Virus record (IMG/VR): IMGVR_UViG_3300033997_000565
Location: 1 to 42,275 of that record
Source of the DNA: a virus
Direction: 5' to 3' (one strand)
Length of the DNA: 42,275 nt
Part shown: piece by piece, positions 6,017-42,275 of the stretch
Layout of the letters: every line of letters starts with the position of its first letter
How positions within the stretch are numbered: position 1 is the stretch's first letter
Notes under the pieces: generated by a model
What the model was told of the DNA's origin: nothing
Database searches by the model: none
Seen by the model: the letters and a program-made list of their open reading frames with translations, nothing else
Program-made: the position numbers and the translations under genes

Positions 6017-6186
6017 ATAAAGTCAGCAGCATCGCGCCGTTCCTGCAGTTCGTCTGCCGTGTCGCGAAAAGTCAGATTGTGAAAGACGTTGCCGCCTTGT
6101 GGGCCGTCGCCTGCTTCATCCTCGGAATGATCTATTTCTCGCAGGTCGCTACGGCGCTTGTTCTGATCGTGAGGGAAGTGCGTTGA
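6013..6186 (+). CDS. Small predicted membrane protein (57 aa)
   Basis: ATG 6013 overlaps the preceding stop codon (ATGA) and the frame ends at 6186, inside the transposase start. The product MNKVSSIAPFLQFVCRVAKS... carries one long hydrophobic segment, ALWAVACFILGMIYFSQVAT, at about residues 28-47, followed by a basic end (IVREVR). It is too short to assign to a family. Tight coupling on both sides argues that it is translated. A single-span membrane protein in the early operon could act in exclusion or host takeover, but that is a guess. Confidence 0.55.
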   Translation: MNKVSSIAPFLQFVCRVAKSQIVKDVAALWAVACFILGMIYFSQVATALVLIVREVR

Positions 6187-8432
6187 ATACAGTTCCCTTT
6201 GCCTCTGACGCCAGTCGCCTGAAGGAATGGCTGACCGCACAGGAGATCGCAGATGAAGCTCTCCCCGGCCTGCCGACAACCAAGCGCGGTGTTAACAAAT
6301 TTGCAGATACGGCGAACTGGTCAACAAATCCCGCCCTTTGCCGCGCTCGAAGCGGCGTCGGCGGCGGTCTGGAATATCATTATCGCCTGTTTCCGACACT
6401 CGCCCAGGTGACCTATGTACAGCGTTATATGGTTGTCGGCAGTGAGCCGGTGGAACGGCAGCCCGAGCTGGAAACGAGCACCTCGGCATCGCTGACCGAT
6501 CGCGCCCGGCGCGAACGCGATGCCCGCTTGGCTGTTGTCGCCGCCTTCGAGACCTTCTCAAAGGGCCTCTCAATCTCAGTTCAAGCCTCCATGTTCATCT
6601 TCTGCGACCGGTGGAACATGAACATGATCCAAGCGGATGATTGGGTGAAGGACATCCTGCCGCAGATTTCGCAGCGCTCGGTTTTCCGGTGGCGTTCGGC
6701 CAAGCAAGCCGGTGCAAAGGACAAGCTCGCCGTCGATCGTTCCGAGGCGCGCAAGGGCAAGGGATTGCTCGACACCGCGAACGCCGGTGAGGTCCGCGCC
6801 TTTGTACTGGCATGGATCGCCAAAAACCCGGCGCTGTCGGCTGATGTCATCCGTGGCTATTGCAAGGATCATTTTGGAGCGGAGTTGATCGACCGCAATG
6901 GCGAACTGAAGCCGCTGCCGCCACCGCGCACATTCCAGCACTTCATCGCTCAGTTGAAGTCATCGGAAAAGGTCGTCCTCACCAAGATCACCGACCCGGA
7001 TAAATTCCGGTCGCACATGAAGCTTTCCGGTACCGGCACCTATCGCCACATCACCGACCCGAATGCACTCTGGATGATCGACGCCTCTCCGGTCGATGCC
7101 CTCTGCATTGATGGCCGTCATTCATTGTACGCCTGCATCGACATCGCCACACGTCGGCTGGTCATTACCCTATCGAAAACGCCGCGTGCCTCGGCCGTTG
7201 GTCTGATGATGCGCAAAGCAGTCCTGAAATGGGGCGTTGCGAAGATCATCAAGACGGACAATGGCAGTGACTTCGTCGCCGTTTCGATCAAGCGCCTGTT
7301 TGCCGATCTCAACATCGAGCCGGACGTTTCCGACGCCTATACGCCAGAGCAGAAAGGCCATGTCGAGCGTGTCATCAAGACGTTCCAGCATGAGGTTGGT
7401 CCACAGTTGCCCGGTTACATCGGCCATTCTGTCGCCGATCGAAAGGCGATCGAAGGTCGCAAATCGTTTGCGGAGCGTCTCGGCGCTGACGAAAAAGAAC
7501 TGTTCGAAGTCGCTCTGACCGCCGAGCAGCTCCAGCACCATATCGATGACTGGCTGGAATATGTCTATCACGAGCGTGAACATGGTGGCCTGAAAGACCG
7601 CACACCCAACGAGGTCGCAGCCGCGTCTCTTGCGAAGATCAACCGCGTTGACGAGCGTGCGCTGGATGCGCTGCTGATGCCGGTGGCTGGCAAGAACGGC
7701 CATCGCACCATGCAGAAGCGTGGCATTCAGAATGACGGTTTCTTCTATCTTGCCGGTTCCATCATGGTCGGCACCGATGTGTTCTGCCGCCTCGATCCGC
7801 TCGACATGGGCAAGATGTATGTCTTTGATGGCGAAACCGGACGCTATCTCGATGTCGCCATCTGCCCGGAACTCTCCGAGGTCAATCCACAGGCTTACGT
7901 CAAAGCGCAGAAACAGATTGCCGCCGAGCTGATCCGAGAAAAGGAACGCGAGATCAAGGCCGGTATTCGCGAGCTGAAGAAAGGCCCATCGGGTATCGAG
8001 CGCACCATCCGCCTTGCCAAGAAAGAGAAGGCGGAACGCGACGCAGCTATCGCCAACGTCATCCAGTTGCCCAAGCGCGAACAGCAGCACAGCACGCCCG
8101 CCATTGACGCCGCACTGGAGGCCATGACCGCGCCGAAGATGCCGCAGCCTGCCACGCTCAACGAGAAGGCGGCGGAAATCCACGCGGCCATCGTCCGCGA
8201 GGCCGAGCTGAAAGGTAATTCCACCGTCATTCATCTGGACCCGGACGCGGCGCTGACGGACGGCGCACGTATGTTCAAGTGGTCGCAGACCGTCGACGCG
8301 CAGATCGCTTCCGGTGTCGCGATCGATGACGCCACAGCGGGCAAGCTCGCCCGCTACAAGGCCAGCGCCGATTACCAGACGCGCCGGGACATTTTCGAGG
8401 ATTTCGGGATCGACGCCGCACTACGCGGCTAG
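6183..8432 (+). CDS. Phage transposase A, DDE/rve type with Mu C-terminal domain
   Basis: The transposase cuts and joins phage ends during lysogeny and replicative transposition. With TTG 6183 as start (good GAGGGAAG ribosome site, TTGA overlap with the gene before) the product has 749 residues. An N-terminal Mu-type winged HTH covers about 13-60 (LKEWLTAQEIADEALPGLPT). The catalytic core carries D300 (WMIDASPVD), D359 (IIKTDNGSD) and E395 (GHVERVIKTF). The spacing D359-E395 is DD35E, as in Tn552, IS3 and retroviral integrases, not the DD55E of MuA. A Mu-transposase C-terminal beta-barrel follows near 500-570 (GFFYLAGSIMVGTDVFCRLD), then long charged helices that probably contact the B ATPase. 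Confidence 0.95.
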   Translation: MNTVPFASDASRLKEWLTAQEIADEALPGLPTTKRGVNKFADTANWSTNPALCRARSGVGGGLEYHYRLFPTLAQVTYVQRYMVVGSEPVERQPELETSTSASLTDRARRERDARLAVVAAFETFSKGLSISVQASMFIFCDRWNMNMIQADDWVKDILPQISQRSVFRWRSAKQAGAKDKLAVDRSEARKGKGLLDTANAGEVRAFVLAWIAKNPALSADVIRGYCKDHFGAELIDRNGELKPLPPPRTFQHFIAQLKSSEKVVLTKITDPDKFRSHMKLSGTGTYRHITDPNALWMIDASPVDALCIDGRHSLYACIDIATRRLVITLSKTPRASAVGLMMRKAVLKWGVAKIIKTDNGSDFVAVSIKRLFADLNIEPDVSDAYTPEQKGHVERVIKTFQHEVGPQLPGYIGHSVADRKAIEGRKSFAERLGADEKELFEVALTAEQLQHHIDDWLEYVYHEREHGGLKDRTPNEVAAASLAKINRVDERALDALLMPVAGKNGHRTMQKRGIQNDGFFYLAGSIMVGTDVFCRLDPLDMGKMYVFDGETGRYLDVAICPELSEVNPQAYVKAQKQIAAELIREKEREIKAGIRELKKGPSGIERTIRLAKKEKAERDAAIANVIQLPKREQQHSTPAIDAALEAMTAPKMPQPATLNEKAAEIHAAIVREAELKGNSTVIHLDPDAALTDGARMFKWSQTVDAQIASGVAIDDATAGKLARYKASADYQTRRDIFEDFGIDAALRG

Positions 8433-41193: not shown

Positions 41194-41307
41194 ATGAATG
41201 AGATTTTCTATCTGGCGATTTTCGGTCTGATCTGCGGAGCCATTTTTCTTTTAGGAGGATTGGGCTTCGCCATCTGGTGGATCGTGAACCACGTCCAGAT
41301 CGTCTGA
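41194..41307 (+). CDS. Tiny membrane protein after gpD (37 aa)
   Basis: ATG 41194 has an excellent ribosome site (AAGGAGTAAGCACG). The product, beginning MNEIFYLAIFGLICGAIFLL, is one long hydrophobic helix with a short polar end (NHVQIV). It may be an accessory lysis, exclusion or superinfection protein; none can be shown. It is the last gene before the structured noncoding stretch. Confidence 0.65.
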   Translation: MNEIFYLAIFGLICGAIFLLGGLGFAIWWIVNHVQIV

Positions 41308-41318
41308 GATCGAGAACA

Positions 41319-41454
41319 GCCTCCCGGTAAGCCGGGTGGCCGGGGTGATTCTACGCACCCCAAGCGACGGGCCAAAGTTTGGCGACCTAACCCGTCCGAC
41401 AGCCACGTTCGATAACTGTCACACCCGTACCCTGCAGGGCGGGTTTGCTGTGAC
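41319..41454 (+). ncRNA. Candidate structured RNA: four consecutive hairpins before the methylase gene
   Basis: Four stems follow one another: GCC-T-CCCGG/CCGGG-T-GGC (41319-41340, TAAG loop); GGGGTG/CACCCC (41342-41361); GACGGG/CCCGTC (41366-41396) enclosing a CCAA/TTGG hairpin; and GTCACA+CCCG/CGGG+TGTGAC (41418-41454) enclosing CCCTGCAGGG. No frame in this interval looks coding, and no T-run marks any stem as a terminator. It may be a small RNA, a tail-operon 3' end or a 5' leader that controls the methylase. Folding was judged by eye. Confidence 0.45.
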
Positions 41455-41474
41455 TGAGTCGAGAGATATTTGAA

Positions 41475-42275
41475 ATGGTGAATCTGACATCGGTGGCTCC
41501 GGCCACTCCCGCCGCACCTTATATCGGTGGAAAACGTGTTCTGGCGAAGGCGATCATCGCTCGCATCAACGAGACGCCGCACGAAAGCTATGCGGAGGCA
41601 TTTGTTGGCATGGGTGGTGTCTTCCTCCGCCGAAACCTCCAGCCGCGCATGGAGGTCATTAACGACATCAGCGGCGACGTCGCCAATCTCTTCAGGATAT
41701 TGCAGCGGCACTATCCGCAGTTCATGGAAACGTTGCGATATCAGGTCACGAGCCGCCGTGAATTCGAGCGCCTGTCCCGTGTTGACCCTTCGACCCTGAC
41801 CGATCTGGAACGTGCGGCACGGTTTCTCTATCTCCAGCGCACCGCGTTCGGCGGTAAAGTCGCCGGGCAGAACTTCGGGGTTACTATGCAAGGCGCTCGT
41901 TTCAATCTCCTGAAGCTCGCCCCGCAACTGGAGGCGATCCACGAACGGATGGCCGGTGTCGTCATCGAACAGCTTCCTTGGCGGCGCTTCATTGAACGTT
42001 ACGATCGGCCCGGAATGCTGTTTTATCTCGATCCGCCTTATTTCGGAAACGAGACGGACTATGGCGCTGGCGTGTTCAGTCGGGAGGAGTTCGCCGAAAT
42101 GGCGGTTGTTCTCGGCCAGATTGAAGGGCGTTTCATATTGTCTTTAAACGCCGTTCAAGGTGTCTTCGAAACCTTCAAGGATTTTCGAATTGAACAGGTG
42201 GATTGCACCTATTCCATACAGGGCGCTGGAAACAGCAAACCTGTAAAGGAGGTAATTATCTCAACCTCCTATTGA
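41475..42275 (+). CDS. D12-class adenine-N6 DNA methylase (Dam-like)
   Basis: The 266-residue product is complete; its TGA ends exactly at the window edge. Motifs of D12-class N6-adenine methylases are present: PYIGGKR (15-21), the SAM-binding FVGMGG (43-48), DISGDVANLFRILQ, and the catalytic DPPY (186-189) in LFYLDPPYFG. The family includes Dam (GATC), but the target cannot be read. Placed near the right end of the phage, it occupies the position of Mu mom, which also modifies phage adenines against restriction. No strong ribosome site (GAGAGATATTTGAA precedes), which leaves room for leader-based control. Confidence 0.92.
   Translation: MVNLTSVAPATPAAPYIGGKRVLAKAIIARINETPHESYAEAFVGMGGVFLRRNLQPRMEVINDISGDVANLFRILQRHYPQFMETLRYQVTSRREFERLSRVDPSTLTDLERAARFLYLQRTAFGGKVAGQNFGVTMQGARFNLLKLAPQLEAIHERMAGVVIEQLPWRRFIERYDRPGMLFYLDPPYFGNETDYGAGVFSREEFAEMAVVLGQIEGRFILSLNAVQGVFETFKDFRIEQVDCTYSIQGAGNSKPVKEVIISTSY

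Follow-up and report, generated by a model that had tools for sequence, protein, structure and literature searches.

A conserved structured RNA, probably antisense to the leader of DNA-modification genes, in a Mu-like prophage and related phages

Comparison of related sequences gives good support to the view that the hairpins ahead of the D12 methylase gene in the window (the whole 42,275-nucleotide stretch of viral DNA analysed here) form a conserved structured RNA that probably reads from the minus strand, where it lies antisense to that gene's leader. The window is a Mu-like transposable prophage with a MuA-like transposase at 6099-8432, Mu portal, Mu F-like and Mu I-like proteins, and P2-type tail proteins. 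Its first gene (1-1479) is the host trigger factor gene, and the prophage therefore lies near tig. The stretch 41319-41454 follows a short ORF that ends at 41307 and precedes the D12 N6-adenine methylase gene. An earlier note, made from the letters alone, had described a cascade of four hairpins here; tandem hairpins are present where it placed them, but the fold is a minus-strand four-way junction with an additional hairpin rather than a linear plus-strand cascade (Table 1).

The folding energy of the single sequence is not decisive. When the plus strand of the stretch was folded alone, the z-score was -1.48 and 18 of 200 shuffled sequences folded equally well; for the minus strand, the values were -2.30 and 4 of 200. 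For this reason, the case for an RNA rests on comparison. A scan against Rfam, suggested by the earlier note, returned no family: Rfam 15 gave no match to the window stretch at the gathering threshold or at E values up to 5, and at gathering the relatives matched no family apart from tRNAs. A second RNA type described below matched none at E values up to 1, so that neither type is matched by an Rfam family on either strand, and no description of this RNA was found in the literature searched (the open part of PubMed Central).

A methylase-based search of IMG/VR revealed relatives that share a conserved spacer but have different genes upstream of it. The same RNA, hereafter the first type, is also found in Rhizobium phage RR1-B and Sinorhizobium phages StopSmel and Aussie, and because these cultured phages carry it, it is open to experimental testing. 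The covariance model built for this type, R1, matches the window at 41463-41326 on the minus strand (138.3 bits, E 3.5e-36), the window being among the model's own sequences. In order on the minus strand, the fold consists of the P4 hairpin and then a four-way junction closed by hA and enclosing P3, P2 and P1.

Table 1. Predicted RNA elements and the neighbouring gene in the window
Feature	Position	Strand	Support or remark
Structured RNA, approximate extent (5′ hairpin P4, then four-way junction)	41329-41449	-	Covariance model, covariation, strand counts
GAYTCAGTCAC, conserved unpaired block 5′ of the RNA	41450-41460	-	Promoter-like position
P4, short hairpin on the 5′ side of the RNA	41429-41440	-	95.2% of cells paired; 2 pairs with double changes
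hA, closing helix, 5′ arm	41422-41427	-	Pairs with 41333-41338; 95.7% paired; 3 pairs with double changes
P3, stem-loop	41397-41421	-	98.6% paired on minus; loop with conserved U41414 and U41412
P2, stem with small apical P2a	41366-41396	-	Arms 41366-41371 and 41391-41396; 100% paired; 3 pairs with double changes
P1, stem-loop	41340-41363	-	86.3% paired; 4 pairs with double changes
hA, closing helix, 3′ arm	41333-41338	-	Same support as 5′ arm
P0, optional hairpin	41319-41340		Rivals hA for CCGGGYGG
D12 class N6-adenine DNA methyltransferase gene	41475-42275	+	PF02086, E 1.4e-18; leader predicted antisense to the RNA

Covariation, the check that the earlier note had named, came out in favor of the structure. 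In a 50-sequence alignment, 94.4% of the cells of the 33 pairs were paired, 15 pairs showed double changes, and none of 500 shuffled alignments equaled the real one on any of five measures, although the shuffling ignores relatedness and the structure was derived from the same sequences, so that the exact figures need care. Slid versions of the structure reached at most 51.5% pairing, and this drop, together with the strand bias described below, is a firmer point than the shuffle figures. Paired changes in hA include GGAUG with CAUCC and similar combinations, and the P2 pair 41367-41395 is A-T in 65 and G-C in 34 of 103 sequences. P0 can form with no more than one mismatch in 38 of 57 relatives, where about 6.6 would be expected. 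Outside the helices, loop residues 41414, 41412 and 41381 are conserved, and most positions of the GAYTCAGTCAC block, which adjoins a variable stretch at 41444-41448, are more than 85% conserved among the 103 sequences.

The impression that no frame here is coding held up, as the lengths of the RNA among relatives fall into all three residue classes. A minus-strand ORF at 41208-41942 (244 aa) was set aside, because only 59 of the 103 relatives keep the corresponding frame open and the RNA lengths vary out of register. There is likewise, as had been remarked, no T-run terminator at these stems in the window; P0 was considered as a minus-strand terminator and rejected, since no T-run follows it on that strand. 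The helix P4out (41418-41423 with 41449-41454) was left out of the core because it competes with hA and P3 and its support comes mostly from a nearly invariant column.

Which strand is selected was determined with 103 non-redundant relatives. The RNAalifold consensus-fold index (SCI) was 0.46 for minus and 0.13 for plus, and the share of paired cells was 93.1% versus 82.1%; P3 pairs to only 60% on the plus strand. Counted over the 30 core pairs, Watson-Crick cells number 2466, and G-U occurs on the minus strand alone in 372 cells and on the plus strand alone in 37. The pair 41401-41417 illustrates this bias: read on plus it is A-C in 72, A-T in 20 and G-C in 10 sequences, which on minus gives G-U, A-U or G-C in 102 of 103. 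Moreover, the covariance model recovers distant relatives besides the window copy, and all its strong matches are antisense to the gene, including locus L066, where the RNA precedes com.

The genes beside the RNA were examined with a gene-blind DNA pattern derived from the RNA alone, which found 72 viral stretches; three of them (L093, L108 and L120) had no RNA-profile match and were taken as chance. Among the remaining 69 copies, 49 precede a D12 methylase and 15 a Com-like gene, and the last five comprise L116 and four decayed copies that are nearly identical. Over all loci then assembled there are 133 distinct copies, a total biased by the fact that most loci were fetched by the methylase, a bias from which the pattern set is free: 107 precede D12, 12 precede com followed by ABC-GNAT, seven precede com followed by a C5 methylase, one precedes com at a contig end, two are rows from L017 (D12, com and C5), and four have none of these genes. 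The distance from RNA to gene is nearly fixed in almost every copy. Pfam confirms Com (PF10122), C5 methylase (PF00145), and ABC and GNAT domains in the neighbors. In the window itself tblastn finds no com gene, in agreement with the earlier note and unlike other members of the same RNA family, where com is present.

Several of these loci show arrangements of their own. In L092, L138, L146, L154 and others, com is followed by a protein that carries both ABC ATPase and GNAT domains (PF00005, PF00583), possibly a Mom-like modification module. In L017 the D12 gene lies between the RNA and com, and partial, decayed P1-P2-half copies lie beside a complete RNA in L017 (2536-2607 and 2855-2989) and L034 (4946-5007).

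In whole genomes, the first-type model was positive in 22 of the 297 genomes belonging to the order of Rhizobium rhizogenes and in none of 288 other genomes drawn from the same class, these large searches using stricter filters; it was also negative in 150 genomes from the order of a Burkholderiales genome, under the stricter filters and without a positive control. In about 30 of the 34 Rhizobiales loci the RNA adjoins com or a D12 methylase gene. L227 retains only a methylase remnant, L237 has com and then an N6/N4 methylase, L250 has neither gene, and L244 and L247 are weak matches. The Martelella mediterranea genome has eight model matches, two of them overlapping on opposite strands, which suggests several related prophages.

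A second RNA type was found in com phages of Pseudomonas, Burkholderia and Curvibacter, where about 130 nt before com have very stable minus-strand folds. For 27 aligned sequences, the SCI was 0.57 on minus versus 0.38 on plus, and 164 cells are G-U only on minus versus 24 only on plus. It is a three-way junction with the same layout as the first type (P4, hA, P3, P1), with 91.6% of cells paired, double changes in 19 of 31 pairs and none of 500 shuffles as good. An alternative helix resembling P4out (columns 3-8 with 33-38 of alignment A5) was rejected, since it overlaps the promoter-like block and shows little variation in its inner pairs. After hA on the minus strand, the first five bases have T frequencies of 0.78, 0.67, 0.85, 0.74 and 0.63 (background 0.22). 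Upstream lies a TAGGCT block, usually after TG (TGnTAGGCT), with a TTGC[A/C] block 14-18 nt away, mostly 16-18, that adjoins the start codon of the gene. The U-tract and the upstream blocks thus look, by their sequence, like a terminator and a promoter.

Among genomes of the Pseudomonas family, the second-type model was positive in 30 of 148; it was also positive in 14 of 200 Burkholderiales-order genomes and in 2 of 149 from the order of Citrobacter. All 49 loci from Pseudomonadaceae and Burkholderiales adjoin com, a D12 methylase or both, the D12 gene of L344 being truncated and read by eye. The Citrobacter-order match L391 has no evident gene beside the RNA, and in L392 (31-1485), from an Enterobacterales genome, the gene next to the RNA encodes an N6/N4 methylase that has a weak ParB-like domain. 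Neither type is clearly recovered by the model of the other, and the two may share descent or only a layout.

The strand evidence of two separate sequence families thus points to the strand opposite the gene, and this bears on what the earlier note had proposed. Its unknown regulatory RNA associated with the methylase is borne out as a conserved RNA tied to that gene, but not as a leader structure or switch within the mRNA of the methylase; of its two options, the free small RNA appears to fit better, in the form of an antisense-strand RNA.

Existence, strand and gene linkage of the predicted RNA are well supported by these comparisons, which also support its structure; the linkage, at near-fixed spacing, is almost exclusively to com and/or DNA-modification genes. 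The RNA is constant while the enzyme varies (D12, C5, N6/N4 or ABC-GNAT) and com comes and goes, which favors action in cis on the right-hand gene. We therefore prefer, as a tentative reading, a cis-encoded antisense regulator that would hold back late and possibly harmful modification genes. On this reading, a non-coding RNA some 110-130 nt long would be transcribed leftward from just upstream of the modification gene and fold into the 5′ hairpin and the multi-branched core. Its transcription and the folded RNA would keep the right-hand gene low until late infection, because late read-through mRNA would carry the complement of the whole RNA and, for the Pseudomonas type, because the promoter-like elements of the RNA would overlap the start region of the gene. 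Against this reading, the predicted RNA stops short of the ribosome site and could therefore not cover that site directly. For the window's own family, no standard minus-strand promoter was found at the right place, the single sigma-70-like match falling inside the RNA, nor was a U-tract found on that strand.

The conserved loop residues suggest recognition in trans, which a pure cis-antisense role would not need. The RNA could accordingly act in trans or bind protein as a small RNA of the modification module: it would bind a host or phage factor, such as a restriction or defense component or a regulator, and would only be co-inherited with the modification gene. Selection of the structure on the RNA's own strand, and its retention with or without com and alongside different enzymes, would fit this as well. 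Nevertheless, the nearly fixed distance to the gene start suggests action in cis, and no clear copy was found far from modification genes; we regard this explanation as rather unlikely. A plus-strand structured leader of the methylase mRNA, acting as a riboswitch or translational switch, is improbable. The helix 41418-41423 with 41449-41454 adjoins the start region and is pairable to 91% on plus and 82% on minus; however, its partner column 41449-41454 is nearly invariant, and P3 accounts for the shared strand. The other helices have the minus-only wobble pairs, on which this leader was rejected as the main reading, and the U-tract of the second type reads only on minus.

More improbable still is a folded single-stranded DNA element, for example a recombination site by which modification cassettes are swapped under a common head. 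Different enzyme cassettes following the same element, the D12 gene between element and com in L017, and the partial 5′ copies in L017 and L034 would fit it, but the terminator-like U-tract and promoter-like block of the second type fit a transcript, and no integrase-type core site was recognized by informal inspection. Chance hairpins in a G+C-rich spacer would agree with the modest single-sequence z-scores; this reading is already contradicted by covariation in two families and by covariance models that recover copies next to modification genes.

Phages must turn DNA modification on late and tightly, and Mu mom is the textbook case. The mom product is cytotoxic and mom is controlled at both transcription and translation (PMC4461284, PMC6483171). 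A cis-encoded antisense RNA would serve the purpose that Mu achieves at mom by other means. The parallel to Mu com-mom drawn in the earlier note is supported: genome position and the late DNA-modification role are the same, and the same RNA type heads com-containing modification operons of other phages, preceding PF10122 (Zn_ribbon_Com) genes in many relatives. However, Mu uses sense-mRNA structure and a protein, whereas the RNA here is predicted on the other strand, with or without com. When a Com-target hairpin adjoining the start codon in the sense mRNA was considered, the conserved helices appeared to favor the antisense strand. The com region of Mu also differs in having no covariance-model match and in holding a late promoter, and R1 run directly against Mu, B3, JD024 and Chuche gave no convincing match. 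As a point of likeness, the Mu mom region has a leftward-pointing RNA polymerase site, momP2, and work by Balke in 1992, cited in PMC4461284, reportedly deals with distinct polymerase sites; we know of no structured RNA product of momP2. The set of Weinberg from 2017 reportedly contains a D12-methyl RNA motif upstream of D12 methylase genes, which could be related to the RNA described here.

It is also possible, and we suggest it with slightly more reserve than the antisense role itself, that these RNAs form a widespread new class in phages, comprising two or more structural types, placed antisense at the head of exchangeable DNA-modification cassettes as a common controller of anti-restriction genes with or without Com. 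If confirmed, an antisense-strand RNA of this kind would be a control element that such genes have in common in phages of alpha-, beta- and gammaproteobacteria and that has so far escaped notice; it would also serve as a marker for finding new modification cassettes. In phage B3 (1234-1459 of its locus), the region of the predicted RNA is overlapped or adjoined by B3ORF45 and B3ORF46, short annotated ORFs that may not be genuine. Among known phage RNAs, the C4 type (RF01695) is likewise a phage-encoded structured RNA and acts by antisense pairing, but differs in being an Rfam family; C4 itself and its a1/b1 target match Rfam elsewhere, in the same contig stretch of one locus (L287, 3138-3329).
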